From Nitrospirota bacterium (GTDB taxonomy: Bacteria > Nitrospirota > Thermodesulfovibrionia > UBA6902 > DSMQ01): DNA of 64,000 nt. The notes beneath the pieces are model-generated. The model was given only the letters and a program-made list of their open reading frames with translations, was not told where the DNA came from and ran no database searches. A program made the position numbers and the translations under genes. The DNA is taken from positions 32,683 to 96,682 of the forward strand of contig JACQXB010000009.1 of the NCBI GenBank assembly GCA_016208965.1, in the 5' to 3' direction. Positions 22,944-60,481 of this stretch are shown here, in pieces (the stretch's first letter is position 1; every line of letters begins with the position of its first letter).

Positions 22944-24455
22944 TTATTGGCACTTCTTAATAATCTCATCTGCAATCTTATACCCATTCTCTATACAGTC
23001 ATTCATCCCGATTCCCCTGTAAGCGTTACCTGTAAGATATAAGCCGGGACAGGATTTAAGCCTATCGTCTATAATTCTTAATTTTTCACCATGCCTAAGG
23101 TCATACTGAGGGATAGCTTTCTCCCATCTATATATCCTTACCATATCAGGCTCTGTCTTTAATGAAACAATAGGTCTTAATTCATCAAAAACGGTATTTA
23201 TAAGGTCATTGTCCTCTAACATTGCCAACTCAGGTGACTTTGCGCCACCAATCATACTTCTTAAAAGCACATGTCCTTCAGTAGCCCTGTTTGGAAATAT
23301 ACTTGAGTCCCAGAGTGTGCCAAGAATCTTTTTGCCCTCCTTGTGCGGAATTAAAAAACCGAAGCCATTGAGAGGATGTAATATCTTTTCACTTTTATAG
23401 CCAAAGCATACAACAGACACAGGCGGATATGAAATACCTGAAAGGTTTTTAGACAGCTCTTTATCAAAATCTCTTAAAATTTCTGAGGATGCATATGCGG
23501 GTGTTGCAAGGACAACTATATCTGCATAAACTATTCCTTCAGAGGTATGAAGTCTATATAAGTCTCCTTCTTTTTCAAGACCCTTAACAGAAACCCCGAT
23601 TCTTACTCTTCCATCAAGTTTTTCAGTGAGCGCATCAGTGATGGTTTGCGTCCCGTTGTAAAAAGATGTAAGATTGCCGCTAGGTGCAGGACCGACTTTT
23701 GCTTGAGAGGTTGAGAAGTTGAGAGGTTGAGAAGTTGAGAAATTCTTATCTTCATAACTTCTCATCTTCTTAGCTTCTGTCTTTTTCTTAGCTCTTTGCA
23801 ATTTTATCATTCCCCTTATGAGACTTCCATATTCCTGTTCAATCTCCTTTATCCTCGGAAAGCAATGCCTGATGCTCATCTTATACGGGTCACCAGCAAA
23901 TATGCCTGAGCACATAGGGTCTATTAGTTTTTCAAGTGCTTCTTTACAGAGTCTGCGTATTACAAAATCAGCAACAGTTTCATCTTCAGGTCCTTTTGGC
24001 GCAATGAGATCATAGAATATTCTGAGTTTTCCATGCCATGAAATAAGGTCTGATTTCAAAAATGCAAGCGGTGATTCAGGAAGGACGTTAAGTTTACCCT
24101 GAGAGAATATGTATCGTTTCTTGGCATTTTCATTGCTTCGCAAAGGTTCGATTCCGAGATCTGCACATAATTCAAGGGTTTTAGGCTTATTATCAAGAAA
24201 TCCATTAGGACCTTTTTCACAGAGAAATCCATTCACCTTATCAGTCCAGATTTTTCCTCCGGGACGATTATCAGATTCTAAGACCGTAATATCCAAATCT
24301 TCATTTAAAAATCCCCCTCTGTCCCCCTTTTTCAAAGGGGGATACAATATATCCCCCCCTTTAGCAAAGGGGGGTGAGGGGGGATTTTTACTGATAAGTG
24401 CATATGCAACTGTTAAGCCTGAGATTCCGCCGCCAACAATAGCTATTTTTTTCAT
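22944..24455 (-). CDS. hemG: Protoporphyrinogen/coproporphyrinogen oxidase, HemY type
   Basis: IAIVGGGISGLTVAYAL FAD motif, NRPGGKI, C-terminal LYLTGNAYRGIGMNDCIENGYKIADEI. Confidence 0.92.
   Translation of the reverse strand: MKKIAIVGGGISGLTVAYALISKNPPSPPFAKGGDILYPPLKKGDRGGFLNEDLDITVLESDNRPGGKIWTDKVNGFLCEKGPNGFLDNKPKTLELCADLGIEPLRSNENAKKRYIFSQGKLNVLPESPLAFLKSDLISWHGKLRIFYDLIAPKGPEDETVADFVIRRLCKEALEKLIDPMCSGIFAGDPYKMSIRHCFPRIKEIEQEYGSLIRGMIKLQRAKKKTEAKKMRSYEDKNFSTSQPLNFSTSQAKVGPAPSGNLTSFYNGTQTITDALTEKLDGRVRIGVSVKGLEKEGDLYRLHTSEGIVYADIVVLATPAYASSEILRDFDKELSKNLSGISYPPVSVVCFGYKSEKILHPLNGFGFLIPHKEGKKILGTLWDSSIFPNRATEGHVLLRSMIGGAKSPELAMLEDNDLINTVFDELRPIVSLKTEPDMVRIYRWEKAIPQYDLRHGEKLRIIDDRLKSCPGLYLTGNAYRGIGMNDCIENGYKIADEIIKKCQ
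23702..23741. repeat. Octamer tandem array GAGARRTT x5 inside hemG
   Basis: gagaggtt gagaagtt gagaggtt gagaagtt gagaaatt; translates as NFSTSQPLNFSTSQ. Confidence 0.85.
24309..24388. repeat. GC-rich palindromic repeat inserted in-frame in hemG
   Basis: Two CCCCCTTT..AAAGGGGG hairpins; peptide NPPSPPFAKGGDILYPPLKKGDRGGF. Confidence 0.9.
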
Positions 24456-24499
24456 TCTAATACCTTAAATTTTTAGATTGCCTGAGAATACTCTCTTTA

Positions 24500-24571
24500 G
24501 CCGTCATTCCCACGAAAGTGGGAATCCAGATCAAATTATTACTGGATTCCTGCTTCCGCAGGAATGACATT
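24500..24571. repeat. Palindromic repeat, GTCATTCC...GGAATGAC family, overlapping hemH 3' end
   Basis: gtcattcccacgaaagtgggaatcc...ggattcctgcttccgcaggaatgac; gives HemH tail VIPAEAGIQ*. Confidence 0.85.
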
Positions 24572-25678
24572 TGTCAACACAAGTTCTTTCAGCACCTCTA
24601 TAAACTTCTCAGATGTATTCAGAGCCTCGCATCTCCTGAAATTTATACCATGCTTCTCCGCTATCTCTTTATAGAGAATATCTATCTCATATAGAGTTTC
24701 TATATTATCTGATACAAAACTTATTGGCACAACAAATAAATTCTTACAGCCCTCATTTGCAAGTCTTATTATTGTTTTATCCGTTGCTGGCTCAAGCCAT
24801 TTAACAGGACCTGTCTTGCTCTGGAAAGATAGATGCCACCTAACAAGTGACGAGTGACCCTTCGACAAGCTCAGGGCAGGCTCAATGACGAGTGACGAGT
24901 TAATCGCTGTAATAGTTGCTTTAATTTGTTCAAGATAAGGGTCTCCTTCGTCAATAAAGCTCTGAGGAAGGCTGTGGACACTGTAGAGGATATCAACATT
25001 CTCCACCCTCCCCCTTGCCCCCTCTCCCGATGTGTCGGGAAGGGGGGTGGGGGAGGAGTGATCTTCATTAAATTTTGAAATGCCATTGTGTATAAGCCCT
25101 GCAAGCGCCTCTATATAAGGTGGGAAATCATACCACTGTTCAATGTATTGAATCGTGAGGCGTGAGACGTGAGGCATGAGGCGTGTAACTACTCTTTTAA
25201 ATTCTGAAATTGCAGAACCAGTTGTTGCCCTTGAGTAATGAGGATAAAGGCTTGCCACAACAAGATGCTTAACCCCATCTTTTATAATCTCCTTTACCGT
25301 ATCACTTATAAAAGGATGCCAGTAGCGCATAGCGATGTAGACCTTAAAAGAAAGTGACGAGTGACGAGTGACGAGTGACGAGTTTTTAACTTCTGACTTC
25401 TTATTAAGTGCTTTCTCAAGTGCCTCTGCCTGAGCCATTGTTATATCAAGCAGTGGTGATTTCCCGCCTATAAGACTGTACATCTTTTCTACCTTTTTTG
25501 AGCGAAGGTCTGATATGAGTCGTGCTAATGGTTTCTGAAGAAATGCAGGACCAAGTTTTATAATCTCTCTGTCAGAAAAGAGATTATAAAGAAAGGGCTT
25601 TACTGCCTGGAGGGAATCAGGACCACCAAGATTAAGTAGAAGAATGCCAATTGGGTCAGAATGTTCAGGCACGAGCAT
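24539..25678 (-). CDS. hemH: Ferrochelatase
   Basis: GILLLNLGGPDSLQAVKPFLYNLFSDREII; YSVHSLPQSFIDEGDPY. Confidence 0.93.
   Translation of the reverse strand: MLVPEHSDPIGILLLNLGGPDSLQAVKPFLYNLFSDREIIKLGPAFLQKPLARLISDLRSKKVEKMYSLIGGKSPLLDITMAQAEALEKALNKKSEVKNSSLVTRHSSLSFKVYIAMRYWHPFISDTVKEIIKDGVKHLVVASLYPHYSRATTGSAISEFKRVVTRLMPHVSRLTIQYIEQWYDFPPYIEALAGLIHNGISKFNEDHSSPTPLPDTSGEGARGRVENVDILYSVHSLPQSFIDEGDPYLEQIKATITAINSSLVIEPALSLSKGHSSLVRWHLSFQSKTGPVKWLEPATDKTIIRLANEGCKNLFVVPISFVSDNIETLYEIDILYKEIAEKHGINFRRCEALNTSEKFIEVLKELVLTNVIPAEAGIQ
24842..24901. repeat. GTGACGA heptamers interrupted by a TTCGACAAGCTCAGG repeat, in-frame in hemH
   Basis: agtgacgagtgacccttcgacaagctcagggcaggctcaatgacgagtgacgagt; peptide NSSLVIEPALSLSKGHSSLV. 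Confidence 0.85.
25003..25056. repeat. GC-rich palindromic repeat in-frame in hemH
   Basis: caccctcccccttgccccctctcccgatgtgtcgggaaggggggtgggggagg; peptide SSPTPLPDTSGEGARGRV. Confidence 0.8.
25155..25189. repeat. Heptamer array GTGAGGC x5 in hemH
   Basis: gtgaggc gtgagac gtgaggc atgaggc gtgtaac. Confidence 0.8.
25353..25383. repeat. Heptamer array AGTGACG x4+ in hemH
   Basis: agtgacg repeated perfectly; peptide NSSLVTRHSSL. Confidence 0.9.
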
Positions 25679-25689
25679 ATCTAAAAAGT

Positions 25690-27525: not shown

Positions 27526-28987
27526 GTCTCACTGGAATTACAAACACAAACTCACTTCCTTTCCCAACCTCGCTCTCAACCCATATCCTTCCGCCGTGAA
27601 GTTCTACAAATTTTTTACACAGACTAAGCCCAAGCCCTGTACCTTTATATTTCTTTGTCATGGGAGACTCAAGCTGCTGGAATGGTTGAAAGAGTTTTTG
27701 TATATCATTCTCCGGGATGCCTATTCCTGTATCCTCTACCGAAATTTCAATGAAATTTCGGGCAGAAGATAAGAAGTTGAGAAGTTCAGAAGTTAAGATT
27801 TTTTTCTCATCTTCATAACTTCCTATCTTCACATCTTCTATCTTTTTCCCAGCTTCTATCAGTCTTACGCTTACGCGCACGCTGCCTCCATCTGATGTAA
27901 ATTTCAAAGCATTGCTTAAAAGGTTCAATATTATCTGCCTCAGCCTTCTTTGGTCTGCTGTGATATTTACTATATTATCATCAATTTCAAATCTTATCTT
28001 TATCCTGTGTTTGATTACCGCTTCCTTAAGCATTGCAATACTACCTTCAATAGTCTCCCTGAGGTTAAACTCGGACAGTTCGAGTTCCTCTTTCTCTGCT
28101 TCTATTTTACTTAAATCAAGGATGTCGTTAATCAGAGACAGGAGGTGTTTCCCACTAATAATAATATCGTTAAGATATTCTTTCTGTAACTCACTTACGC
28201 TTTCTGCATGACCATCAACCATAAGTTCGGAAAACCCTATTATTGCATTAAGCGGGGTCCTCAATTCATGAGACATGTTTGCGAGAAATTCTGATTTAGC
28301 CCTGTTGGCTGTCTCTGCATGAACCTTTGCAATCTCAAGTTCCTTAGTCCTCTTTTTTACCCTTTTCTCAAGTCCTTCAACAAGCCATCTGTTTTCAATA
28401 GCCGAGGCAACGTGATTGGTAAATATGATAAAGACCCTTGCTGTTTTCTCTGTGAAGAAATCCGTTTTACTGCTATAGAGGTTAAATACACCCATTACCT
28501 CACCGTCAGAATTTATCAGCGGTAAAGCCATTGAAGAGCGATAACCCCTTTTCAATGCCTCATCCCTCCACTGTGCATACGAAGGATTAGTATCTATATT
28601 ATTTATAACTCTTGGTATCTTTGTCTTTATAGCCATGCCTATTGGTCCCATGCCTGTAGGTGAGTCATCCCATGTAATCTTTATGTTTGACAGGTAATCC
28701 TCCTCAAACCCTGATTTGGCAGCAGGTTTTACATCAAAGTTTTTATCATTCATTAACCCAATCCATACCATTTTAATATCAAAGTTTCTGATTACAATAT
28801 TACATATTGCCTCATAGATGTTTTCTGTGGGTGGTACAGCAGAAAGGACATTGGATGAATCAAGAAGAGATAGCAGGTCTTTGCTGTACCTCATTATCTC
28901 ATCTTCTGCATGCTTGCGCTCGGAAACTTCAATGTTCTCTAATGACCCGAGAATTTCTTTTGATTTTTGATTACTGTTTCTTCCCAT
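27521..28987 (-). CDS. GAF-domain sensor histidine kinase
   Basis: ATG at 28987 ([14 protein letters not shown]); [34 protein letters not shown]. Confidence 0.92.
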
Positions 28988-30029
28988 ATTTATGCACTGC
29001 CTCAACCATGGCAATTGCATTCGCCTCAGGAGTCTCAGGAAGAATACCATGTCCGAGGTTAAAGATATGCCCACGGGCAAAGACTGCTCTTAACAAGAGC
29101 TCTTTCACCCTCTTCTCTATCTTATCCCTTGATAAAAACAAAGCGCACGGGTCTAAATTGCCCTGAACTGAAAAATTATTGCCAAGTCTTTTTATAGCTT
29201 CATCTATATTAATTCTCCAGTCAATGCCAATTACATCAGCATTGCATGACTTAATCTCCTCAAGCAGACCCGAACATTCCCCAACGAAATAGATAATGGG
29301 AACACAATTATTTTGGGATTTGGGATTTGGGATTTGGGATTTAATGCCATCTATTACCCTCTTAACATAAGGAAGTGCAAACTCTCTGTAGTCCATTGGC
29401 GAAAGCACACCTGCCCATGTATCAAAGAGTTGTATAGCCTGCGCTCCTGCATCTATCTGAGCCTTAAGATATTTTGTAATTGTTTTCGCAACTTTATCCA
29501 TCAAGGATTTATATAAATCAGGATTCTGAAAAATCATTTTCTTGGTATGAAGGAAGTTTTTTGATGTCCCGCCCTCTATCATATATGTTGCCATTGTAAA
29601 TGGCGCCCCTGAAAAACCGATTAACGGGACTTTTCCGCTGAGTTCGCTGCGTAAAATTCTTATTGTTTCAAGAACAAAATTTAAGGACTCCTCAGGTTGT
29701 GGAATCAGAAGCTTATCAATAGATGCCCGGTCTCTTATGGGTTTTGCAAACACAGGCCCCTTCTTTTCTGAAAACTTGAGTTCCATGCCCATTGCCGCAG
29801 CAGGAATAAGAATATCTGAAAACAAAATTGCCGCATCCACGCCAAGTGCATCTATAGGTTGAATTGTTACCTGTGCTGCAAGTTCAGGAGTCTTGCAAAG
29901 TGTCAGGAAATCAACCCTTTTTCTTATCTTCTGATACTGCTTCAAATATCTCCCTGCCTGCCGCATAATCCAGACAGGTGTGTATGGGACAGGTTCACCA
30001 CGACATGCCTTTAAGAAAATGTCATTCAT
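28971..30029 (-). CDS. hemE: Uroporphyrinogen decarboxylase
   Basis: [32 protein letters not shown]. Confidence 0.96.
29315..29342. repeat. Heptamer array GGGATTT x4, in-frame in hemE
   Basis: Perfect 4 x GGGATTT; peptide [11 protein letters not shown]. Confidence 0.95.
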
Positions 30030-39542: not shown

Positions 39543-40916
39543 TTACCTGTTGTTGTCAATGACAGTTTTCCGTTCTCGCCCCTTTATTAAAATATACAAT
39601 AAGTTATCAACCTTATCTATGAGTTTTTTGAACAATCCTCTATGACTCTTTGAGTTTCCAAACAGTTCTATCCTGATTTTTGTGATCTCTGAGTCATTGC
39701 ATTCTTCATATGTAATATATCCTTTCTGTATGGCATGTCTTTCAAGAATCAAAAGATGTTTCGCTTTGTCTACAAATGGCATAAGCAATTCTTTAGTTTT
39801 TTTTAGACTATCTCCAAGTTTTTCTTGCCCCTTGTCTCTCGCCCCTTGCCCCTTTTTGAGTATCTCTGCGATTTCTTTTATCATGACATACAACGTGCAG
39901 TATTCAAGCCCCCTTACTCCCCTCCGCCACTGAAGAAGCATTGGGTTTCGCCAGAACCAGAGGAAATTTCGTTCGCCAAGGGAAATCAGCTCATCAACTG
40001 ACATTTCAAGTTCCTTGAGCAGTGACAGGTTTGTTTTGGAGCCTATAAGTTGAGAAGTTGAGAGGCTCTCATCTTCCCAATTTCTTATCTTCCTAACTTC
40101 TGTCTTCTGTCCTGCGAGATATCTCCACTGATTCTTTAGAACTATTGCGCCATTTTCATCATCAGGTGTATCAAAATGAATAAGTGATAGGATTACTTTG
40201 CCTTTGCCAAAATTACCTTCTATTACAGCAGGCTCACCTTTTAATCTCTCAGGATTAAGGTTAATCCTGTAAAGTGCTTCAAGTTTTGTCCAGCTACCGT
40301 TTGTTTCCACATCCCCCACATTCATGTCAGAACTGAAGGAATCAGGCAGGGCATCTCCATAGGTGGCGAGAATTTTTATCCCTTTGTCTTCTACTAAAAA
40401 TTGCGATGGCCACCAGGCGTGAAAAACAGGTGAGAAGTTCTCTGATGCATGATAATCCTGAATCTTGTATCCTGCATCTTGAATCTTGCAGTTGTCCCAC
40501 ACGGAATGTTTGTTGATATTGAGATGAATCTTCCCGCTGAAGCTCGGGACGCGATTCTTTGTAGGTCTTCTCCTGACATTTAAGAGTCCTACACTCTCCT
40601 GAGTTGCAAGCCCTGCACCGCCGCAAAGACCGAGGTAATCGCCTCCGTCTCTGACAAATCTTTTTATCTCCGTGATGCCTTTCTTACCGAGAGCCTTTAG
40701 CTTATTTGATGCCCATCCACCAGGGGTAAATAGCATTTTGTAATTTTTGAGTTGCCCGTTTTTAATATCAGCAGAACGAATAATATCAAAAGGCAGGTTA
40801 AGTGACTTCAATGCCTTATATGCCATTAATCCCCAAAGAAAAGACTCATCCCATAGAAAGGCAACATCATTTGAGGACTTTGAACTTTGAACTTTAAACT
40901 TTGAACTTTTTCTCAT
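39543..40916 (-). CDS. BPL_N-type (glutamine amidotransferase-like) protein in the cobalamin cluster
   Basis: MLFTPGGWASNKLKAL...FVRDGGDYLGLCGGAGLA. Confidence 0.7.
   Translation of the reverse strand: MRKSSKFKVQSSKSSNDVAFLWDESFLWGLMAYKALKSLNLPFDIIRSADIKNGQLKNYKMLFTPGGWASNKLKALGKKGITEIKRFVRDGGDYLGLCGGAGLATQESVGLLNVRRRPTKNRVPSFSGKIHLNINKHSVWDNCKIQDAGYKIQDYHASENFSPVFHAWWPSQFLVEDKGIKILATYGDALPDSFSSDMNVGDVETNGSWTKLEALYRINLNPERLKGEPAVIEGNFGKGKVILSLIHFDTPDDENGAIVLKNQWRYLAGQKTEVRKIRNWEDESLSTSQLIGSKTNLSLLKELEMSVDELISLGERNFLWFWRNPMLLQWRRGVRGLEYCTLYVMIKEIAEILKKGQGARDKGQEKLGDSLKKTKELLMPFVDKAKHLLILERHAIQKGYITYEECNDSEITKIRIELFGNSKSHRGLFKKLIDKVDNLLYILIKGRERKTVIDNNR
40454..40488. repeat. Heptamer array AATCYTG x5 in coding sequence
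   Basis: aatcctg aatcttg tatcctg catcttg aatcttg; peptide CKIQDAGYKIQDY. Confidence 0.93.
40875..40910. repeat. Heptamer array CTTTGAA at 5' end of the 39543-40916 gene
   Basis: ctttgaa ctttgaa ctttaaa ctttgaa; peptide KSSKFKVQSSKSS. Confidence 0.9.
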
Positions 40917-44306: not shown

Positions 44307-45635
44307 CTATCTTTCTCCTGTTATAACAAATATCGTATTTAAAGCATTCATGTGTCTTTTGCCACCCATAGTTTTTACTCTGGAAACAGAAATTTCAGAT
44401 ACTCCCACATTAAATTCGTTGTTCTCAAGATGTTGAATTGCCCCATTCAGTGTCTCTATTGTAGTGGCATTTATTACGATGACTCCAGACGATATCTTAT
44501 TGCTCACAAATTCTATTATCTCTTTAATCCTTCCGCTGCTCCCTCCTATAAATACTCTGTCTGGCTCTGGAAGATTTGATAGTATTTCAGGGGCATTGCC
44601 TTTTATTATCTCAATATTAGATGTGTTGTGTCTAATCATATTTTCCTTGATATGATTAACCTGCTCTTCATCTCTTTCGATAGCAAAAACTTTTAATTCA
44701 GGATAAAGCCTTGCTACTTCTATTGATACTGATCCAGAGCCAGCACCAATATCCCAGAAAACACCCTTTGGGGGAAGTCTTAATTTATGAATGGTTACTG
44801 CCCTAACCTCATCTTTTGTTATGAGCCCCCTTGAATGCTGAATCTCGTCTTCTCGGATACCAAAACAAAAACCAGAAGTTGAGAAGTTTGGAAGTTGAGA
44901 AGTTGAAATTTTCACATCTTCACACCTTCTCATTTTCTCATCTTCTGACTTTTTTATTATGACTACATTTGGGTCTGTGAATAACATGCCAGCAATCTCA
45001 TGAGGTGTTCCCTTAATAATCCTTTCATCAAGATAGCCAAGTTTTTCACAAACAAACATTTTGAGTTCAGAGTTTAGAGTTAAGGATTTAGAGTTAAGGA
45101 TTTTTGCTATTACCGATGGATTGTTCTCTTTATCAGTAAGAATGGCGAGTTTACTATATTTTGTGAGGAGAAATGGAATGTCTTTAATTTTATACTCAAG
45201 TTTTCTTCTTTTCTTTGGGTCGGGCCCTCCATGCAGGCTTATGAAAAATGCATCGCTCCATGTCTCTTTGATTTTTGAAAACGCCACCTGGACACTTGAA
45301 AGGTCCGGGAGTATCTCTATTATGTCATTTGCAAATTCGTTAACGATTCTTCTGCCAATTCCAAAAAACATCGGGTCTCCGGAAGCGAGAAGCACGATAG
45401 CACGTGATGCGTGATGCGTGATGCGTGATGCGATCAGGGACTTGATAAAATTAATTGTCTCATCCACATTGTTTATGACTTTTATTTTATCTTTCACTTT
45501 TTCATATTCCTTATAACTTTTAAAAACCTCAAAGAGCCTTTTGGATGCAAGGATGACTGATGAATTCAAGATAACTTTCCTTGCACCTTTATCAAGTGGT
45601 CTATAGCCAATGCCTATGACATAGATTTTATTCAT
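44307..45635 (-). CDS. CbiE-CbiT fusion (cobalt-precorrin-7 C5/C15 methyltransferase)
   Basis: CbiE N-terminus plus CbiT ITKDEVRAVTIHKLRLPPKGVFWDIGAGSGSVSIE. Confidence 0.94.
   Translation of the reverse strand: MNKIYVIGIGYRPLDKGARKVILNSSVILASKRLFEVFKSYKEYEKVKDKIKVINNVDETINFIKSLIASRITHHASRAIVLLASGDPMFFGIGRRIVNEFANDIIEILPDLSSVQVAFSKIKETWSDAFFISLHGGPDPKKRRKLEYKIKDIPFLLTKYSKLAILTDKENNPSVIAKILNSKSLTLNSELKMFVCEKLGYLDERIIKGTPHEIAGMLFTDPNVVIIKKSEDEKMRRCEDVKISTSQLPNFSTSGFCFGIREDEIQHSRGLITKDEVRAVTIHKLRLPPKGVFWDIGAGSGSVSIEVARLYPELKVFAIERDEEQVNHIKENMIRHNTSNIEIIKGNAPEILSNLPEPDRVFIGGSSGRIKEIIEFVSNKISSGVIVINATTIETLNGAIQHLENNEFNVGVSEISVSRVKTMGGKRHMNALNTIFVITGER
44872..44945. repeat. AAGTTGAG / CTTCTCAT short-repeat inverted pair in cbiET
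   Basis: cagaagttgagaagtttggaagttgagaagttg...cttcacaccttctcattttctcatcttc. Confidence 0.8.
45063..45104. repeat. Heptamer array GAGTTWA/GGATTTA x6 in cbiET
   Basis: gagttca gagttta gagttaa ggattta gagttaa ggatttt; peptide NSKSLTLNSELK. Confidence 0.9.
45404..45431. repeat. Heptamer array GTGATGC x4 in cbiET
   Basis: Four perfect copies; peptide SRITHHASRA. Confidence 0.97.
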
Positions 45636-46602: not shown

Positions 46603-47832
46603 CTATTCACTATTTGCAATTATCTTCCCTTCATACGATACAAGATATGAAATAACAGGTATTCCTGAGGCTATGCTTTCTGCATATTTTTTAGCGGCAA
46701 CACAAACCTTTAAAAAAAGTGATGCGTGATGCGTGATGCGTGATGCGCTAATGAATTCAAAAATTTCCATTGCTGTATTGAACTCTTGCGCTAATCCCCA
46801 ATCCATAACCCCCAATCCCTTTAAAAATTCAATAGTTTTTTTTATATCAATTGCTCCGTGTTTTACATGTGTCTGAGGCGTTGACATTGCAACCTTTAGC
46901 ATCTTTGCCCATTGCGCACAGAGATGGATTTTTTTGAACCCATGCGTTTTCGCCTCAAGAAGCGAATATTCAAGATAATCACCCATCATTATATAATATT
47001 CTTCTGGAAAATTGAATTTTTTCATGTGCGATTTTTCCGAGGTTCGTCCGGCAGAAATAACAATTTCCTGATGCCCCATTGCCTTTGCCACATCCATAGA
47101 AGATGTTATTGTTGCTGTCCATGCCTCTGATGATATAGGTTTCACAATACCCGTTGTGCCGAGTATTGATATACCGCCTATTATACCCAGTCTATGATTC
47201 AGTGTCTTTTTAGCTAATTCCTCGCCATTTGGAACCGAGATGGTTATTTCCAAAACTGAGGCGGTTCTTTTTAAATCTTGCATCTTGCATCCTGCATCCT
47301 GCATCGCTTCCATCACTGCCTTTTCTATCATCTTTCTTGGCACTGGATTTATGGCGGACTCTCTGACAGGAACGGGAAGTCCGGGTTTTGTAACAATACC
47401 AACACCCTTACCACCTTTGATAATTAATAAGTGTGAAGTGGGAACTAAGAAGTGAGAAGTAAAAAACAAAGCATCTAAAAATCTTTTACTTCCTACTTCT
47501 AACTTCTCACTTTTTACTTGTATTGTTGCAACTATCTCTGCCCTGTTTGTTACATCCGGGTCATCGCCTGCATCTTTGATAACAGATGCCCGAGCAATCA
47601 GTGATGAGTGATGAGTGATGAGTTTGGAGTTATGGACTTTAAAACATACTCTGCTGCCATCAGGAAAAGGAATCTCTACATGGGTGATGGATAATGAGTG
47701 ATGAGTAACGGGTTTCTCGTCTGGTTTGTTACGCATTACGCATAACGCATTACGCATCACGAGCATTGCTGCCTTTGCAGCCGCAGCAGCACATGCGCCT
47801 GTTGTATATCCTGACCTGAGTTTTTTCTTCAT
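46603..47832 (-). CDS. cbiD: Cobalt-precorrin-5B C1-methyltransferase
   Basis: LRSGYTTGACAAAAAKAAM; GGKGVGIVTKPGLPVPVRESAINPVPRKMI. Confidence 0.96.
   Translation of the reverse strand: MKKKLRSGYTTGACAAAAAKAAMLVMRNALCVMRNKPDEKPVTHHSLSITHVEIPFPDGSRVCFKVHNSKLITHHSSLIARASVIKDAGDDPDVTNRAEIVATIQVKSEKLEVGSKRFLDALFFTSHFLVPTSHLLIIKGGKGVGIVTKPGLPVPVRESAINPVPRKMIEKAVMEAMQDAGCKMQDLKRTASVLEITISVPNGEELAKKTLNHRLGIIGGISILGTTGIVKPISSEAWTATITSSMDVAKAMGHQEIVISAGRTSEKSHMKKFNFPEEYYIMMGDYLEYSLLEAKTHGFKKIHLCAQWAKMLKVAMSTPQTHVKHGAIDIKKTIEFLKGLGVMDWGLAQEFNTAMEIFEFISASRITHHASLFLKVCVAAKKYAESIASGIPVISYLVSYEGKIIANSE
46719..46746. repeat. Heptamer array GTGATGC x4 in cbiD
   Basis: Four perfect copies; same unit as in cbiET at 45404. 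Confidence 0.97.
47274..47301. repeat. Heptamer array CATCYTG x4 in cbiD
   Basis: aatcttg catcttg catcctg catcctg. Confidence 0.93.
47429..47519. repeat. GAAGTGA/ACTTCTC inverted short-repeat pair in cbiD
   Basis: gtgtgaagtgggaactaagaagtgagaagt ... acttcctacttctaacttctcacttttta. Confidence 0.85.
47601..47623. repeat. Heptamer array GTGATGA x3 in cbiD
   Basis: gtgatgagtgatgagtgatgagt. Confidence 0.93.
47731..47758. repeat. Heptamer array ACGCATW x4 in cbiD
   Basis: acgcatt acgcata acgcatt acgcatc; peptide MRNALCVMRN. Confidence 0.95.
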
Positions 47833-51738: not shown

Positions 51739-52523
51739 GATATTGCCTCCTCTGGCTTTAATACCTTCATCTTCACAAGCAAGTCAGGTCTCTTTTTGTA
51801 AAGCAGTACGACCATGCCTGCTGTCATTGCGCCTTCAAGGATTCCAAGTGGAAGCTGTGTCGGTATAAAGGCAATAAGAATCTTCCAGAAAAGAGGCATG
51901 AATGGTGAATCTCCCCTTATACCTGATGCGAGTTCAACAGATGTTGTGAGATATGTTGCCCAGTCTGCAAATAATCCAGCCATAAAGCCTGCAATCCAAA
52001 GATTAGCCTTTAACGCCCTCAATCCCCTAAATGTAAGATACCCTGCAAATGAGCCCATAACACCCATGGATACTATATCTGCACCCCATGTGCTTAATCC
52101 GCCGTGAGCAAGAAAGAGCGCCTGAATGAGCAGCGCTACTGCTGTAACAAGTATGCTTATTGTAGGTCCAACGAGTATCCCTGATATTCCAGTTCCTGCT
52201 GGATGTGAACAGGTGCCTGCTGTCGGTACAGGGATTGGCATACATGAAATGATAAATACTACCGCTGCCATCAGTCCGACAAGAGGTTTAAATGATAAAT
52301 CAGATTTTGAGAGTACTTTGACTCTCCACAATCCGTATGCAACAAATGGTATAGCAATAGCAAACCAGAAGGCTGCCCAGTTGAATGGCAGAATGCCTTC
52401 GGAGATGTGCATGGCATGAGCACTGTCAGTAGACAGTAGACAGTAGACAGTAAACAGCAAGAAATAAATTCCATATTTTTGAATTTTGCCCCGACCTGTT
52501 CGGGATGATTTTTGAATTTTCAT
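51735..52523 (-). CDS. cbiM: Cobalt transporter S component
   Basis: AMHISEGILPFNWAAFWFAIAIPFV; PIPVPTAGTCSHPAGTGISGILVGP. Confidence 0.95.
   Translation of the reverse strand: MKIQKSSRTGRGKIQKYGIYFLLFTVYCLLSTDSAHAMHISEGILPFNWAAFWFAIAIPFVAYGLWRVKVLSKSDLSFKPLVGLMAAVVFIISCMPIPVPTAGTCSHPAGTGISGILVGPTISILVTAVALLIQALFLAHGGLSTWGADIVSMGVMGSFAGYLTFRGLRALKANLWIAGFMAGLFADWATYLTTSVELASGIRGDSPFMPLFWKILIAFIPTQLPLGILEGAMTAGMVVLLYKKRPDLLVKMKVLKPEEAIS
52425..52459. repeat. Heptamer array GACAGTA x5 encoding the CbiM signal peptide core
   Basis: gtcagta gacagta gacagta gacagta aacagca; peptide LLFTVYCLLSTDS. Confidence 0.96.
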
Positions 52524-53901: not shown

Positions 53902-54890
53902 TTTTCTCCCTTTGCCATCTTCAATAATGCATTCACAATCGCTGCTGCCACAGGGCTACCGCCCTTTCTGCCAAGCGATGTTATAAATGGATACTTCATG
54001 TGCAAGAGAACTTCTTTTGATTCAACGGCCCTAACAAAACCTACAGGAACGCCGATAACAAGTTCAGGCTTGAAATCGGTGTTCCTTATCAGCTTCATTG
54101 TTTTATAGAGTGCAGTGGGTGCATTGCCAATTGCAACGATACCTATATTGTTATTTTCTTTTACTGCTGACTCTATTCCCTGTTCCGCTCTCGTCTTATT
54201 TTCTGAATCTTGAATCCTGCATCCTGAATCTTGTATTTTGCAAAACACCTTTCCGCCCCACTTTTCAAGCGCTTTTTTATTTATCCCTGCCTCTATCATT
54301 TTAATGTCTACCAAAATATCCTTACCATTTTTGATCGCCATTAGTCCTGCCTCCACCGCCTCTGGATGAAAACGCATGTTTTTGGCAAAGTCAAAATCTC
54401 CTGTTGCATGTATCACCCTTTTTACTATCGGCGTCTCAATATCCCTGAAGTCTGTCTTCCTCATCTCTCTGGTGATTATCTCAAAACTCTTCTCCTCTAT
54501 TTCATGCGGTTTAAGTATTTTCACTGGCTGGATGTCTTTCTTTGATCTTTCAAGGACAACTTTTGCAATATTCTCATGTACCCCGAGGGGTTCTGTGAGA
54601 ACGAATTTAATATTACTATATCTTTTCATTGCCTCCGCAATCATTTCACCAATGTCTTCCTGAAAATGTCTTCCCTTGTAGAGAAAATAGGGGTGTATGA
54701 TAATTTTTTTGGCGCCTTTTGAAATACATGTAGAAACTCCTTCAAAGAAATCAGGTTTCGCAAACTGTAAAAAGGCAATCTCAACCAATGGTACATTGCC
54801 CATTGCTTTTACCAGATTCGCCATTTGTTTGAGCGCCCCGTTTGCCTCTGTTAGTCTGCTGCCATGTCCTAATAGCAATATCGCTTCCAT
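53898..54890 (-). CDS. CbiX-CbiC fusion (sirohydrochlorin cobaltochelatase / cobalt-precorrin-8 methylmutase)
   Basis: AILLLGHGSRLTEANGAL; CbiC RVIHATGDFDFAKNMRFHPEAVEAG, GNAPTAL. Confidence 0.94.
   Translation of the reverse strand: MEAILLLGHGSRLTEANGALKQMANLVKAMGNVPLVEIAFLQFAKPDFFEGVSTCISKGAKKIIIHPYFLYKGRHFQEDIGEMIAEAMKRYSNIKFVLTEPLGVHENIAKVVLERSKKDIQPVKILKPHEIEEKSFEIITREMRKTDFRDIETPIVKRVIHATGDFDFAKNMRFHPEAVEAGLMAIKNGKDILVDIKMIEAGINKKALEKWGGKVFCKIQDSGCRIQDSENKTRAEQGIESAVKENNNIGIVAIGNAPTALYKTMKLIRNTDFKPELVIGVPVGFVRAVESKEVLLHMKYPFITSLGRKGGSPVAAAIVNALLKMAKGEN
54206..54240. repeat. Heptamer array AATCYTG x5 in cbiXC
   Basis: aatcttg aatcctg catcctg aatcttg tattttg; peptide CKIQDSGCRIQDSE. Confidence 0.94.
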
Positions 54891-56380
54891 TATGTCTCCT
54901 TAACTGATTTTATAAAATTTCCTGCAATATTAAGATTTGAACCAAAATGTATATGAATATAACTCGTAAGTGTGTTTCTAATCCTGTAGCCTTCGTCATA
55001 CAGCGTTTCACCAACATTATTGTGAATAGAGTATATTTGAGTGTCAGAGTGTCCGAGTATCAGAGTATCAGAGTCCTTGACACTTTGACACTTTGACACT
55101 TTGACGTCTTGATGCTTGATTTCCGAATAATGAAACTCATGCCCTTTCGCTTTGTCACCCTTTTTGCCAAGGATGCAGTCTTCATTTAACACAATTTCTC
55201 TATACCCGAGATTTACATTGTCTTTTTTCATGACCGTTGTAAAAGGGAATACCTGCGCCATCCTGTGGAAGTTTCCTTCAAAATCATAAATTCCTCTTGA
55301 CAGATACATCAGACCTCCGCATTCAGCATATAAAGGCTTTCCAGACATGCACCAGTCATGAATAGCATTTAGCATTAATTCATTGCTGCTGAGAGCGTGA
55401 GCGTAAAGTTCAGGGTAGCCTCCACCGATATAGATGGTCTTCACATTGTCAGGGATCTTTTTATCAGTTAATGGGCTAAACGGTATTATCTCTGCACCGT
55501 TGTCTATTAACAAATCCATGTTGTCTTCATAATAAAAACAGAATGCTTTATCGTAGGCAACGGCAATTCGGATTTTAGAGTTATGAGTTTGGGGTCCGGT
55601 ACCCCTATATCCCCCCCTTAAATTACGGGGAGATATAGGGGAGTTATTCGCATTCTGCACTTCTGCACTTCTGCACTTCTGTACTATCAAATCCACATCT
55701 ATATGTTGCAAAACCGCATCTGCAAGGCGCTGTATTTTTTCATCAGATATAGGATTTTCTTCAGCGACAGTAAGTCCGAGGTGCCTGTGAGGAATTTCAA
55801 AGTCCAACTCTCTTGGTAGATAACCTAAGACAGGCACGTCTTGGACGCTGTCTTTAAGTCTTTTGAAATGATTTTCCGATGCCACACGGTTGAAGATAAC
55901 GCCGGCAACACAAGTATCAGAGTTGCAGAGTGTCAGAGTGTCAGAGTCATTGACGCTTTGATACTTTGATACTTTGATATTTTGATACTCTACAAATCCT
56001 TTCACAAGCGCTCCTGCGCTCTCTGCCATTCCATAGGCATCAACCACAATGACGACTGGCAGATTAAGCAGAGCGGCAAGCTTGGCAGTGCTGTAGTCGC
56101 CATCGTACAAACCCATAACGCCTTCAACTACCGATATATCAGCATTTATTGAAAAGGTGTAAAAACAGTTTCTAACATAATCCTCACCACACATCCAGAG
56201 GTCAAGGTTTCTTGAAGGGTTCTTTGTGATGAGTTTATGAAGTCCCGAATCAATAAAATCAGGCCCTGCCTTGTATGCCTGCACTTTATAACCCCTTTTT
56301 TTTAAAGCGGCAAGTATCCCAAGTGTAATAATCGTCTTGCCGCATCCACTGTGTGTTCCTGCAATTACTATACCGTGCAT
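54890..56380 (-). CDS. cbiA: Cobyrinate a,c-diamide synthase
   Basis: GIVIAGTHSGCGKTIITLGILAAL; YIGGGYPELYAHAL; YAECGGLMYLS. Confidence 0.95.
   Translation of the reverse strand: MHGIVIAGTHSGCGKTIITLGILAALKKRGYKVQAYKAGPDFIDSGLHKLITKNPSRNLDLWMCGEDYVRNCFYTFSINADISVVEGVMGLYDGDYSTAKLAALLNLPVVIVVDAYGMAESAGALVKGFVEYQNIKVSKYQSVNDSDTLTLCNSDTCVAGVIFNRVASENHFKRLKDSVQDVPVLGYLPRELDFEIPHRHLGLTVAEENPISDEKIQRLADAVLQHIDVDLIVQKCRSAEVQNANNSPISPRNLRGGYRGTGPQTHNSKIRIAVAYDKAFCFYYEDNMDLLIDNGAEIIPFSPLTDKKIPDNVKTIYIGGGYPELYAHALSSNELMLNAIHDWCMSGKPLYAECGGLMYLSRGIYDFEGNFHRMAQVFPFTTVMKKDNVNLGYREIVLNEDCILGKKGDKAKGHEFHYSEIKHQDVKVSKCQSVKDSDTLILGHSDTQIYSIHNNVGETLYDEGYRIRNTLTSYIHIHFGSNLNIAGNFIKSVKET
55039..55110. repeat. 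72-bp octamer hairpin array (9 units) in cbiA
   Basis: gagtgtca gagtgtcc gagtatca gagtatca gagtcctt gacacttt gacacttt gacacttt gacgtctt. Confidence 0.95.
55600..55644. repeat. GC-rich palindromic repeat in-frame in cbiA
   Basis: cccctatatccccccctta aattacggggagatatagggg; peptide NNSPISPRNLRGGYRGT. Confidence 0.85.
55653..55684. repeat. Octamer array TTCTGCAC x4 in cbiA
   Basis: ttctgcac x3 plus ttctgtac. Confidence 0.94.
55913..55984. repeat. 72-bp octamer hairpin array (9 units) in cbiA, second copy
   Basis: agtatcag agttgcag agtgtcag agtgtcag agtcattg acgctttg atactttg atactttg atattttg. Confidence 0.95.
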
Positions 56381-57528
56381 AATTTTGATAACTCTTTAAG
56401 CAGCAGAGTATTATCTTTTCGTGATTTAACAGCGACCCTGATATAGGAACTGTCCAAGCCCTTAAAGTTTGAGCAATCCCTAACAAGAATGCCTTGCTTT
56501 CTCAGAGCCAGAGTTATTCTGTTACCATCCCTCGTTTTTACCCACAAATCCCCCCTTCCCCCCTTTGTTAAAGGGGGGTGAGGGGGGATTATTTTTAATA
56601 AATAAAAATTGGCATCTGAGGGAAAAAACTCAACGTCTATCCTCCTGAAACCATTTTCAAGAAAATCTTTTTCACTCTTAATTAGTTTGAGGGTCTTACC
56701 TATATAGTTATTGTCTCCAAGTGCTGCTATTGCTGCTTTTTGAGCCAGTGTATTCACGGTCCAAGGCTCTTTAAATTCCTTTAGTTTGTTGATAATGTGA
56801 GATGGGAAGACTCCGTAACCGATTCTTAGCCCTGTAAGTGCATAAAACTTTGTCATTGAGCGCAAGACTATTAAGTATGGGTTATCCTGAACATATCTAA
56901 TTACTGATTCTTCAGGACAAAAATCAATAAACGCCTCATCAACAACGAGATAGCATTTTAGTTTTTTTGAGGCATCTGCTATCTTTAACACATCATCTTT
57001 TTTAAGCAATCTACCAGTAGGATTATTTGGATTGCATAGAAACGCCATATCAAAAGGCAGTGATGAGTGACGAGTGACGAGTGACGAGATAAATTCCTCA
57101 GGTGTTAATTCAAACCTATTTTCTTTTCTTAACTTGTAACTTGTAACTTGTAACTTGTAACTTGTCATTTTGCATGCCCTTTCATATTCTGAAAATGTCG
57201 GCGCCGGTATCAGGACTTTCTTAGGTTTCAGTGTCCTCGGTATAAGGTAAATCAACTCTGTGCTTCCGTTACCACAGAGTATAGTATCATGGGCTATTTC
57301 ATGATATTGTGCTATGGTCTTTCTTAGTTTTCTTGTATCAGGGTCTGGATAGTAAGATAAATTCTTCAGCCCTTTTTTAATCTCGTCCCTCGCTTTCTCT
57401 GGAACCCTGAGAGGATTTATAGAAGTACTGAAGTCAATGATCTTACTTTCAGGCAACCCAAGTTTCTCTGCAGCTATGTAGATGTTGCCACCATGCTCAT
57501 TCATAGATTGTTCAAAATTATTTAACAT
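56368..57528 (-). CDS. cobD: Threonine-phosphate decarboxylase / HisC-like aminotransferase
   Basis: IIDFSTSINPLRVPEKA; FLCNPNNPTGRLL; DEAFIDFCPEES. Confidence 0.9.
   Translation of the reverse strand: MLNNFEQSMNEHGGNIYIAAEKLGLPESKIIDFSTSINPLRVPEKARDEIKKGLKNLSYYPDPDTRKLRKTIAQYHEIAHDTILCGNGSTELIYLIPRTLKPKKVLIPAPTFSEYERACKMTSYKLQVTSYKLRKENRFELTPEEFISSLVTRHSSLPFDMAFLCNPNNPTGRLLKKDDVLKIADASKKLKCYLVVDEAFIDFCPEESVIRYVQDNPYLIVLRSMTKFYALTGLRIGYGVFPSHIINKLKEFKEPWTVNTLAQKAAIAALGDNNYIGKTLKLIKSEKDFLENGFRRIDVEFFPSDANFYLLKIIPPHPPLTKGGRGDLWVKTRDGNRITLALRKQGILVRDCSNFKGLDSSYIRVAVKSRKDNTLLLKELSKLCTV
56546..56590. repeat. GC-rich palindromic repeat in-frame in cobD
   Basis: peptide IPPHPPLTKGGRGDLWV. Confidence 0.9.
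57060..57087. repeat. Heptamer array GTGACGA x4 in cobD
   Basis: gtgatga gtgacga gtgacga gtgacga; peptide SSLVTRHSSL. Confidence 0.95.
57130..57164. repeat. Heptamer array TAACTTG x5 in cobD
   Basis: Five perfect copies; peptide SYKLQVTSYKL. Confidence 0.97.
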
Positions 57529-57563: not shown

Positions 57564-58838
57564 TTACACTAATGCCTTGAGATAAACAATTAATAGAGCT
57601 GTACAGAATCCTGAAAAAGAACTGATTTTTACAATAAAGATTGCATTCTCTGAAGCCTGTAAATAACGTTCGTATGAGTCTGTTGACCTTGCTGAGAATT
57701 GTTCAAACTTATTTAAAGGTTCAACATTGTTCAAACTTGAACTATTTTGAACTATCTTGAGCCCCCTTGAACTAATTAACTGGTCTTCTCCTATATATGG
57801 TTTTTTCACTATCACTCCATTATAGAATGAGGGGCCTCCAAGCCTTACACCAAGCGCTCCAGCCATTGCAGCTTCGGGGATTCCGCTGTTAGGGCTCAAG
57901 TGACTTCCACCGTCACGGAGCATAATTCTAAAAGCATTTATTCCGCTAACGCTAATAAAGTTTAGCTTTACCAGATTTAGTTCAACATTGTTCAAAGGTT
58001 CAATGTTGTTTAACTTTGAACTATTTTGAACTATCTTGAACAATCTTGAACTAAAGTTGAGAATAAATGTAGCCATGACAATCAAGATAGCAGTGATTCT
58101 TGCAGGTATATAATTCGCAATATCATCAAGTCTTGCTGCTGACCATCCAAAGTCTTTATACTTTTCGTTTTTGTATCCGACCATAGAATCAAGGGTATTT
58201 ATAGTCTTATACGTCATAGCAAGAGGCAGTCCGCCAATTAAAAAATAAAAAAGAGGAGCAATTATTCCGTCAGATGCATTTTCAGCAACGGTTTCAATCG
58301 TCGCCTTTAATATGGCATCCCTGTCAAGAGATTCTGTATCTCTGCCGACTATACAACTAAGATTTTTTCTGGCATTTTCTATATTGTTCACTTTTAAAGC
58401 CTTAATCACTAACTGCGCAGATTTTATTAGTTCACGTGTTGCAAGTGTACTGGAGATGAGATAGACAAGGAAAATAAAAGTGAGAAGTGAGAAGTGAGAA
58501 GTGAGAAGTAAATTAATAACAAAAAATAATCCATAAGTGGACCCTATTATGATTAATACAAGAAAAATCCCAGCCAGTTTTTCAAATCCCCCCTCACCCC
58601 CCTTTGCTAAAGGGGGGATATTATTGAGTCCCCCTTTGTAAAAGGGGGATGGATGGGGATTTTCTAAATTATCTGTATTCTGTGTTCTGTCCTTTGTGTT
58701 CTGTACCACTCGTCTTAAAAAATTCTCCATTTTTGTTATACCCCATCCCATTACCCTTACTGGATGGGGAAGCTGTTTTGGATCACCTATTGCAAGATCT
58801 AAGATATAAGCTACTGTAAGTGTGACAGGCTCTATCAT
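57564..58838 (-). CDS. cbiB: Adenosylcobinamide-phosphate synthase
   Basis: YILDLAIGDPKQLPHPVRVMGWGI; ENASDGIIAPLFYFLIGG. Confidence 0.95.
   Translation of the reverse strand: MIEPVTLTVAYILDLAIGDPKQLPHPVRVMGWGITKMENFLRRVVQNTKDRTQNTDNLENPHPSPFYKGGLNNIPPLAKGGEGGFEKLAGIFLVLIIIGSTYGLFFVINLLLTSHFSLLTFIFLVYLISSTLATRELIKSAQLVIKALKVNNIENARKNLSCIVGRDTESLDRDAILKATIETVAENASDGIIAPLFYFLIGGLPLAMTYKTINTLDSMVGYKNEKYKDFGWSAARLDDIANYIPARITAILIVMATFILNFSSRLFKIVQNSSKLNNIEPLNNVELNLVKLNFISVSGINAFRIMLRDGGSHLSPNSGIPEAAMAGALGVRLGGPSFYNGVIVKKPYIGEDQLISSRGLKIVQNSSSLNNVEPLNKFEQFSARSTDSYERYLQASENAIFIVKISSFSGFCTALLIVYLKALV
57697..57780. repeat. TTGAACTAT-type decamer/octamer repeats in cbiB
   Basis: ttgttcaaacttatttaaaggttcaac...ttgaactattttgaactatcttgag. 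Confidence 0.85.
57976..58062. repeat. TTGAACTAT-type decamer repeats in cbiB, second block
   Basis: ttgaactattttgaactatcttgaacaatcttgaacta (period 10). Confidence 0.88.
58480..58507. repeat. Heptamer array GTGAGAA x4 in cbiB
   Basis: Four perfect copies; encodes TM-like LLTSHFSLLTF. Confidence 0.97.
58585..58662. repeat. GC-rich palindromic repeat (double hairpin) in-frame in cbiB
   Basis: peptide NPHPSPFYKGGLNNIPPLAKGGEGGFEK. Confidence 0.92.
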
Positions 58839-60481
58839 GTTTTATTGCAGTGCTCCATGCCCATCCCGATTAGTCGGGACAAAATAAAGCATATATCTAT
58901 ACTGTTTCTTAAAACATCTGCCCATTTGTTTATTGCCTTTTCCTTAAGTTCAAAATAATTGACTGTTTGCTCAACAGGCGGTAAGCCCTTTTGTTCTTTT
59001 ATTGAATTAAGCAGTGACCTCCTGAAACTATTGTTATCAAACAGCCCATGAATGTATGTCCCCCAGACATTACCTTTTAGAGAACCATCCATTACAACCG
59101 TGAAGCGTGAAGCGTAAAGCGTAAAGCGTGAAAGACTGAACAATCCAATATCTCCTGTTGTTCTGCCCATATGGATTTCATATCCCTTTAAATCCTTGAA
59201 ATCACAATTTGAACTATTTTGAACTACATTGAACAAACTTGAACTATTTATAAGCTCTGCCTCTACCTGACACGTGGTCTTTGTCCTCTGAAGCGTTGTA
59301 ACAACATCGAGGAAACCCATTCCGTCTATTTCTTTCAAGCTGCTTTCTACACCAAATTGGTCAAATATCTTTTCCCCCAGCATCTGATACCCACCGCAGA
59401 TTCCAATAAGTGACGTTCCATTTTTAACTGCTGACTTTATGCAGTCCTCTATCCCATTCTCTCTCAGAAACAATAGATCGCTTACAGTATTCTTTGAACC
59501 CGGGATAATGATAAGGTCTGCACTTTTAATATCTTCTGCCCTCAATGAATAAATAAGTTCTACTTCTGGCTCATATAAAAACGGATCGAAATCTGTAAAA
59601 TTAGAAATGTATCTCAGTCCTAAGACCACAATCTTTAAGTAACGAGTAACGAGTGACGAGTGACGAGTAAAATTATTACTTACCCGTTCAAGTGGAATAC
59701 CGTCTTCTTCATGAAGCCCAAGATCCCCTAAATAATTAATCACGCCTATAACAGGTTTGCCGGTTTTATTTTCTATTATCCTCAGTCCGGGACGAAGTAT
59801 CTCTATATCCCCGCGGAATTTATTTACAATAAATGCCTTTATATAATCAGCATCGCAAAATAACCCCTCCTTACTCCTCCCCTTATCTAAGGGGAGGATG
59901 GGTGGGGTTAAGGAGGGATTAAGGGGGGTGTCCTTCAATAATTCAACTGTCCCGTAAAAAGATGCAAATATACCGCCTTTATCTATGTCCCCGACAAGGA
60001 TTACCGGAGCATCTGCATAACGTGCAATACTCATATTTACAATTTCTTTCTTTTGAAGGTTAATCTCTGCGGGACTGCCAGCGCCCTCTATTACGATAAC
60101 GTCATGATTCTGTGAAAGCCTGTCATATGCAGAAGTGACAACCTGCCATGCTGTATCCTTAAAGGCGTAGTACTCAATTGCATTCATGTTTCCATAAACC
60201 TTGCCGTTCAAAATCACCTGACATCCTGATTCTCCTGTTGCCTTGAGCAGTACAGGATTCATATCATTGCATGGTTCAATCCCTGCGGCATCTGATTGAA
60301 ATGCCTGCGCGCGTCCTATCTCACCACCTTCTTTTGTAATGAATGAATTCAGCGCCATATTCTGTGCCTTAAAAGGTGCTACTTTAATACCTATATCTCT
60401 GAATATTCTGCAGAGTCCCGCAACAATCATGCTTTTGCCAACACCAGAACCTGTTCCCTGTATCATTATGGACTTAGACAT
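58835..60481 (-). CDS. cobQ: Cobyric acid synthase
   Basis: IMIQGTGSGVGKSMIVAGLCRIF; GICGGYQMLGEKIFD; GTYIHGLFDN. Confidence 0.96.
   Translation of the reverse strand: MSKSIMIQGTGSGVGKSMIVAGLCRIFRDIGIKVAPFKAQNMALNSFITKEGGEIGRAQAFQSDAAGIEPCNDMNPVLLKATGESGCQVILNGKVYGNMNAIEYYAFKDTAWQVVTSAYDRLSQNHDVIVIEGAGSPAEINLQKKEIVNMSIARYADAPVILVGDIDKGGIFASFYGTVELLKDTPLNPSLTPPILPLDKGRSKEGLFCDADYIKAFIVNKFRGDIEILRPGLRIIENKTGKPVIGVINYLGDLGLHEEDGIPLERVSNNFTRHSSLVTRYLKIVVLGLRYISNFTDFDPFLYEPEVELIYSLRAEDIKSADLIIIPGSKNTVSDLLFLRENGIEDCIKSAVKNGTSLIGICGGYQMLGEKIFDQFGVESSLKEIDGMGFLDVVTTLQRTKTTCQVEAELINSSSLFNVVQNSSNCDFKDLKGYEIHMGRTTGDIGLFSLSRFTLYASRFTVVMDGSLKGNVWGTYIHGLFDNNSFRRSLLNSIKEQKGLPPVEQTVNYFELKEKAINKWADVLRNSIDICFILSRLIGMGMEHCNKT
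59100..59134. repeat. Heptamer array GTRAAGC x5 in cobQ
   Basis: gtgaagc gtgaagc gtaaagc gtaaagc gtgaaag; peptide SRFTLYASRFTV. Confidence 0.95.
59639..59666. repeat. Heptamer array GTRACGA x4 in cobQ
   Basis: gtaacga gtaacga gtgacga gtgacga; peptide TRHSSLVTRYL. Confidence 0.95.
59862..59930. repeat. GC-rich palindromic repeat in-frame in cobQ
   Basis: peptide NPSLTPPILPLDKGRSKEGLF. Confidence 0.85.

Follow-up and report, generated by a model that had tools for sequence, protein, structure and literature searches.

Why should genes for heme and cobalamin (B12) biosynthesis be peppered with short tandem repeats whose period, mostly 7 or 8 nt, is not that of the codon? The question is raised by a 64-kb stretch of an uncultured Nitrospirota bacterium (GenBank assembly GCA_016208965.1, contig JACQXB010000009.1, positions 32,683 to 96,682; here called the window), whose hem and cbi genes carry most of the arrays listed in Table 1. 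An initial annotation of the window had described them as unrelated units that share only a period. Array detection combined Tandem Repeats Finder, which recovers the arrays where they had been described, with an independent autocorrelation count. Counted as exact periodic runs of at least 12 matches, the window holds 17 of period 7 and 7 of period 8, together with harmonics, where order-3 Markov simulations give 0.03 and 0.00; no such run has a period of 5, 6, 9 or 12. With 398 kb from other contigs, the sample grows to 462 kb (28% of the 1.67-Mb assembly) and yields 116 period-7 and 19 period-8 arrays, where the matched Markov control yields none of either. The period spectrum is therefore far from that of the controls, and chance or assembly artefact can be ruled out, as the controls are empty and dozens of assemblies made independently have arrays at the same sites. 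The nearest named sequences to the window's ferrochelatase, HemH, come from groundwater or subsurface Nitrospirota metagenome-assembled genomes (MAGs) of the Thermodesulfovibrionia type, and the tracts are seen across an order of that type; the phenomenon may extend to further phyla at lower density.

Many arrays sit in frame within open genes. Among the period-7 arrays of the 462-kb sample, 74 lie wholly inside open reading frames (ORFs; called by a simple longest-ORF heuristic outside the window), 30 are intergenic and 12 fall at ORF edges, although density in this genome is higher between genes (0.46 per kb, against 0.19 in genes). The host ORFs of the window are open and retain full Pfam domains for ferrochelatase, URO-D, CbiD, CbiGH, CbiXC, CbiA, a CobD-type aminotransferase, CbiB and CobQ. 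An AlphaFold model of HemH has a mean predicted local distance difference test score (pLDDT) of 86.7; its repeat-derived segments are mostly low-confidence loops, with the exception of site 2, a helix extension, and the conserved motifs HSLP and SDNIETLYE are retained. Dispensable or decaying hosts can thus be rejected, since essential genes carry arrays and HemH keeps its fold and catalytic motifs. The proposed focus on heme and B12 genes holds as an enrichment: the hem and cbi stretches (22.9-33 and 39.5-60.5 kb) contain 29 period-7/8 arrays, or 93 per 100 kb, about 3.5-fold the 26 per 100 kb found in the 398 kb sampled elsewhere in the genome, and the remaining window contains only 2. The cbi cluster is also enriched in three relatives (G022, G029 and G031). 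It does not hold as an exclusive association, because MurD (7 arrays in 531 amino acids, aa), leucyl-tRNA synthetase (LeuRS), formylglycinamide ribonucleotide (FGAR) amidotransferase, GMP synthase, queuine tRNA-ribosyltransferase (TGT) and LptD are hosts as well. The cobalamin cluster of G022 (L201) packs 42 period-7/8 arrays into 18.9 kb, about nine times the density of another region of that genome.

Period, length and orientation of the genic arrays are tightly constrained. By period, 74 genic arrays have units of 7 nt and 14 have units of 8 nt, and periods 6 and 9 together account for 4. The annotated range of 3-9 copies turns out to be too broad, as copy number is narrow: the length of genic period-7 arrays peaks at exactly 31 nt (four units plus 3 nt; 26 of 74), whereas intergenic lengths are broader. 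Stop codons occur in 6 of 70 genic words read in the coding orientation and in 52 of 70 read in reverse, while 19 of 27 intergenic words contain stops on both strands. This distribution is a purifying filter on the reading frame. Could the arrays be phase-variation switches, which toggle a gene off and on by gaining and losing units? Any change of copy number in units of 7 or 8 nt does shift the frame, but the essential MurD and LeuRS are among the hosts, array-bearing orthologues stay in frame across dozens of species, the arrays have only about four units, and the sole case of pure unit loss, two units between sister species, falls at the extreme terminus of a called ORF. We give this explanation almost no credence.

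Comparison of orthologues for five genes (HemH, CbiD, CobQ, MurD and LeuRS; up to 30 relatives per gene) reveals that the sites are fixed while the words are not. HemH orthologues were collected from 39 relatives, and of the 30 that were aligned, many show peptides derived from repeats at two or three common positions, encoded by a heptamer that differs between species, even inside one genus. CbiD has about seven such shared sites and CobQ about three, and MurD and LeuRS likewise show fixed sites with different words. Segment length is often kept as well. Of ten species with a clean array in the C-terminal segment of CbiD, nine have a segment of 99 nt, although the words include ACTCGTC, CGCATCA, TTCAGCC, CTCAACA and others; at HemH site 2, nine of the ten species that carry an array have 81 nt and the 14 that lack one have 66 nt; and CbiD aa 55-85 measures 93 nt in most species, clean array or not. 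At the latter site and at HemH site 3, arrays substitute for native residues with a net length change of zero or less. The constancy of period across loci with different units is thus borne out, and extends to single sites compared between species, where register and often length are kept. The outcome that would have refuted the initial reading, homologues with the same peptides at these positions, is not seen: relatives carry different peptides or no array there. Calling the arrays lineage-specific insertions is too simple, since many sites are order-wide, some are equally long whether or not they hold a clean array, and at some the array takes the place of native residues.

Words at a shared site are also kept in phase. 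Where two species have arrays at homologous sites within segments of equal length, the unit consensus was compared in register and in the six other rotations. The in-register comparison gives the smallest unit distance at 16 of the 17 sites, where 2.4 would be expected (sign test 4e-13 with sites treated as independent), and per gene the distance ranges from 1.6 to 3.4 of 7 in register against 4.3 to 6.1 in other rotations. The signal survives among pairs that are at least three substitutions apart in every rotation: 46 of these 78 are closest in register (17.4 expected). Successive units inside one array differ at only 0.4-0.85 of 7 positions, against the 1.6-3.4 between species, which is the signature of concerted evolution. 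Mixed tracts of the AABB or ABAB kind are present, and a single tract (L139) forms a gradient of in-register words, running through ATTCAAA, ATTCATA, ACTCTAA, ACTCATA and ACTCGCA.

The sister species G029 and G031 capture this turnover at close range. Over 13 kb of the cbi cluster they share 90.7% identity, and most of their shared arrays are conserved; at CbiD aa 62-78 and at the HemH sites, however, identity falls to about 50-70% within the array, against 88-96% in the flanks, with edges sharp to a few bases. One array is two units shorter in one of the pair, and 45 nt have been lost in frame from one CbiD hairpin. In these alignments, turnover of array words is fast and local. Whole-allele recombination between species is an unlikely source of the word replacements, as divergence is confined to the array and the flanks are at background identity.

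Many arrays face a second array, and the two arms change together. In the window, several period-8 arrays form facing inverted pairs (e.g. 23703/23743 and 55039/55077). Across 88 pairs of neighbouring arrays within 110 nt, with swapped arms as controls, inverse complementarity falls in the top 10% of the controls for 33 pairs (about 9 expected), and direct similarity is rare. Arms also match their own partner better than they match the arms of other species: own-arm against cross-species complementarity is 11.6 against 6.0 (p 0.0004) and 12.8 against 6.0 (p 0.0006) at the paired sites of CbiD, 14.8 against 9.6 (p 0.02) at MurD site 1, and 10.8 against 4.9 and 10.0 against 5.6 (p 0.045 and 0.034) at the paired sites of LeuRS, so both arms change in concert. 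In another relative (G036; L202:10707-10757 and 17948-18008), two facing pairs of TTAGTTG and CTAACAA with zero gap form nearly perfect long hairpins.

Such compensating change in facing arms, like the enrichment of arrays in cofactor genes, is what would be expected if tracts and hairpins were retained for a function in mRNA or DNA, such as transcript stability, pausing or protein binding. Yet many arrays stand alone with no facing arm, there is free variation in the words, numerous relatives lack an array at the sites, and arrays are denser in the intergenic DNA of the window genome, which makes a retained function of this kind very improbable. SbcD is part of a nuclease that opens DNA hairpins. 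Only one of 47 relatives has an SbcD match above the family cut-off, as do 18 of the 231 class genomes and, for comparison, 8 of 14 control genomes. None of the 18 positive class genomes is among the 51 that hold ACTCGTC arrays (p 0.009, phylogeny ignored). Absence of SbcD may permit hairpin tracts; yet most genomes that lack it are also without the ACTCGTC word.

The words themselves are far from unrelated. The 116 period-7 arrays of the sample fall into 61 unit classes with 109 same-class pairs, against about 12 after letter shuffling. From across the genomes, 245 stop-free genic words reduce to 100 distinct ones with 465 same-word pairs, where random 7-mers of the same genes would give about 204 and 48. 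Since the units form a shared lexicon, the claim that they are unrelated fails, and a process that acts on period and is blind to sequence is not supported. TCA (TGA on the opposite strand) is present in 135 of the 245 genic words, with 49 expected, and array pairs share a word in 2.4% of cases within genomes and 1.3% between genomes, against 0.14% for shuffled words. Words are drawn from a restricted, TCA/TGA-rich lexicon common within and between genomes. One of them, ACTCGTC, is repeated over 24 nt in 51 of 231 class genomes, where the reversed control pattern has almost no matches. Its distribution is very patchy, with 56 copies in G006, 40 in G009, 25 in G019, 23 in the window genome and none in most.

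This lexicon bears on the simplest source of arrays, slippage from native seeds, in which, separately in each lineage, a chance 7-nt near-repeat grows in frame by 21 nt, or three units. The sharp genic peak fits, as 31 nt is a 10-nt seed plus 21 and intergenic lengths are broader, and arrays at HemH site 2 continue in register into native IQ codons. But the words are unlike native 7-mers, and the net length differences observed are +15, +9, 0 or negative, not +21. Units of 6 and 9 nt, whose expansion by any number of copies would preserve the frame, hardly occur. Lexicon and lengths have already weakened this explanation, and we consider it improbable.

What process, then, keeps the site and the phase but changes the word? 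The account that we favour, with about an even chance of being right, is that the arrays are long-lived tracts in tolerant protein loops: selection would hold them in frame, while slippage or template-switch copying on a local scale would rewrite them, so that they evolve in concert. Once in a tolerant loop, a tract would undergo repeated rewriting by local copying. Replication slippage or transient misalignment would copy one unit over its neighbours, template switching would copy one arm over the facing arm, and a mutated unit could so spread through the tract, or a related word replace it. Purifying selection on reading frame and fold would eliminate stop-containing words and off-frame lengths, and we propose that this accounts for the one-sided orientation and for a size that hardly departs from 31 nt, made up of one unit, three further units and a 3-nt overlap. 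New tracts were probably founded by microhomology-primed copying from other tracts, and some existing ones replaced likewise, a seeding that would explain the shared lexicon; together with a word replacement shifted by 1 nt at HemH site 2 of G029, the lexicon suggests that such founding and replacement sometimes occur. Loss of mismatch repair is rejected as a cause, as MutS is present in 47 of 47 relatives.

Several observations weigh against rewriting in place. The shared lexicon and the patchy spread of a single word over 51 of 231 genomes require a step beyond local rewriting. At HemH site 2 of G029, the word ACGCTCA lies 1 nt out of phase with the words of relatives, which are of the AATTTCA type, and shares its register with the native flank alone; on inspection of the alignment, this resembles replacement more than gradual drift. 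The register p-values are indicative, because the species pairs are phylogenetically non-independent and the common TCA core could generate part of the signal. In the MurD pair at aa 272-330, words are conserved and the arms show no significant co-change (p 0.25). Outside the arrays there is no residual lag-7 periodicity once arrays are masked, nor a lag-7 excess among G029/G031 substitutions. Genome-wide lag-7 templating is rejected on these grounds: no general copying bias feeds the tracts, and the process requires a pre-existing tract.

Could the arrays instead arrive ready-made? Repeated insertion, the main rival, holds that mobile or copied heptamer arrays, similar to repetitive extragenic palindromes (REPs) or Rickettsia palindromic elements (RPEs), land in tolerant loops and are trimmed into frame, with words that differ according to what each species received. 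The lexicon common within and between genomes, the patchiness of ACTCGTC over the class, the palindromic REP-like elements that the same loops also house, the Y1-type transposases of 34 of 41 relatives and the complete word replacement between sister species all agree with it. It does not readily explain why exact length is kept despite different words, why different species have a common register, or why arrays replace native residues at HemH site 3 and CbiD aa 55-85; no target-site duplication is seen, and several genomes without Y1 transposases still hold some arrays. Array density is 2.5 per 100 kb in relatives without Y1_Tnp and 11.3 in those with it, a difference driven by one region; any association of the arrays with a RAYT-type transposase is weak and confounded. 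Repeated insertion is thus a possible explanation, to be held tentatively. A dedicated enzyme with a fixed 7-nt (or 8-nt) step, for example a template-bound polymerase or a transposase-associated copier, might also write and overwrite the heptamer tracts and complementary hairpins in tolerant gene sites. We find this distinctly unlikely; if true, it would mean that an active repeat-writing system operates inside essential genes of these bacteria.

Other repeats and regulatory elements of the window accompany the arrays of Table 1. Palindromic families, mutually unrelated (CCCCCTTTG..AAAGGGGG, TCCCCC..GGGGGA, ATTCCTGC..GCAGGAAT and CCTGAGCTTGTCGAAGG), occur at 24310-24385, 25001-25060, 24501-24570 and 24858-24883, within hemG and hemH or where these genes end, and form part of the translated sequence; palindromes of this kind share loops with heptamer arrays in relatives. 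Intergenic hairpins with period-9 arms (CACAGATT.. / AATCTGTG..) lie at 30046-30155 and 47839-47989, directly upstream of hemE and cbiD. They are about 73% identical to each other and have the same inverted-tandem-array design with a different period. Two cobalamin riboswitch aptamers (RF00174; 53326-53528 and 60581-60807) are found upstream of cbi genes. Beyond the Nitrospirota, long period-7 or -8 arrays of up to 15 copies occur around hemH in a Blastocatellia MAG (L107) and two Desulfobacterota MAGs (L099 and L118).

Table 1. Tandem arrays and associated features of the window, in window coordinates.
Feature	Position	Strand	Gene or remark
Period-8 array, TTGAGAAG x4.9	23703..23741	-	hemG/hemY (ORF 22944-24455, Amino_oxidase); left arm of inverted pair
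Period-8 array	23743..23778	-	inverted partner facing the 23703 array; Tandem Repeats Finder
hemH (ferrochelatase)	24539..25678	-	five repeat-derived segments; fold and catalytic motifs retained
Heptamer array interrupted by CCTGAGCTTGTCGAAGG palindrome	24858..24900	-	HemH site 3
Degenerate heptamer array	25154..25182	-	HemH site 2
AGTGACG x4.4, exactly 31 nt	25353..25383	-	HemH site 1
Facing period-8 pair	27764..27844	-	sensor histidine kinase
TTTGGGA x4.4, 31 nt	29312..29342	-	hemE
ACTTTGA x4.7	40877..40909	-	cbiGH end / next ORF start
Facing period-8 pair	41332..41401	-	cbiGH
TAACTTG x4.7	41731..41763	-	cbiGH
Facing period-8 pair	44874..44946	-	cbiET
CGTGATG x4.3	45403..45432	-	cbiET
GTGATGC x4.1	46719..46747	-	cbiD, C-terminal site
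ATCYTGC x4.4 (AABB pattern)	47275..47305	-	cbiD
Degenerate period-7 arrays	47429..47519	-	cbiD, aa 103-136; paired hairpin site in relatives
AGTGATG x3.4	47600..47623	-	cbiD, aa 62-78 (segment 93 nt in nearly all species)
TTACGCA x4.7	47729..47761	-	cbiD, N-terminal site
CAGTAGA x4.4, 31 nt	52427..52457	-	cbiM
Degenerate period-7 array	54204..54240	-	cbiXC
Facing period-8 pair, GAGTATCA / TTGACACT	55039..55105	-	cbiA; arms at 55039/55077
TTCTGCAC x4.1	55653..55685	-	cbiA
Second facing period-8 pair	55913..55989	-	cbiA
AGTGACG x4.3	57059..57088	-	cobD-type aminotransferase
TAACTTG x5.1	57130..57165	-	cobD-type aminotransferase
Period-10 array	58016..58053	-	cbiB
AAGTGAG x4.6	58478..58509	-	cbiB
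CGTGAAG x4.9 (AABB)	59099..59132	-	cobQ
Period-10 array	59208..59249	-	cobQ
AGTAACG/AGTGACG x4.7 (AABB)	59638..59670	-	cobQ

The pattern points to an unusual local DNA-copying process inside protein-coding sequence. Between 90%-identical species words change, yet period, register and often length persist at dozens of homologous sites in essential enzymes; this is a natural experiment in which the process can be traced step by step. Conserved enzymes whose loops are encoded by self-rewriting repetitive DNA also give proteins a way to change, one that tools for annotation and alignment usually treat as noise. Searches of the open-licence literature found no description of this pattern in Nitrospirota, nor of shared in-gene sites that combine register-preserving word turnover with co-changing arms.

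How do these arrays compare with known repeats? Heptamers of the cyanobacterial short tandemly repeated repetitive (STRR) type are mainly non-coding, unlike the arrays of the window genome, most of which are genic even though their density per kb is higher between genes. Heptamers are known to be over-represented in bacteria, and a detailed literature on them is said not to exist (PMC4692102). Cyanobacterial STRR and the G-rich heptamers of Xanthomonas and Nostoc resemble the present arrays in being tandem heptamers of few copies at many loci genome-wide, but they use few unit types and are strongest near ORF ends (PMC4692102), whereas the Nitrospirota arrays draw on a large lexicon, lie inside the ORFs of essential enzymes and occupy genus-spanning sites with word turnover. 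The TAACTGA arrays of Beggiatoaceae have 2-6 copies, are intergenic and are spread patchily across phyla, with related heptamers rarely repeated; mixed heptamers in Microcystis are mentioned in the same work (PMC4679880). Both systems are heptamer arrays with patchy spread, but TAACTGA is one intergenic word and the Nitrospirota words are many, in arrays that are mostly genic.

In-frame repeats inside ORFs have parallels of their own. REPs and RPEs in ORFs are likewise short and in frame, include housekeeping genes among their hosts and sometimes occur several to a gene (PMC3733652). They are palindromes with a conserved sequence, whereas a Nitrospirota array on its own is not palindromic; palindromes arise only where arrays are paired, and their words are specific to the species. 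What stays constant is period, register and lexicon. Borg tandem repeats also evolve rapidly in ORFs and form disordered segments, but their in-ORF units are always divisible by three (PMC9879509), in contrast to the units of 7, 8 or 10 nt described here. In yeast, short inverted repeats in coding DNA are known to be homogenised by template switching (PMC8604942). Arm-to-arm copying in coding DNA is alike in the two cases; in yeast it acts on isolated short inverted repeats, and here the arms are tandem heptamers that turn over recurrently at fixed sites.

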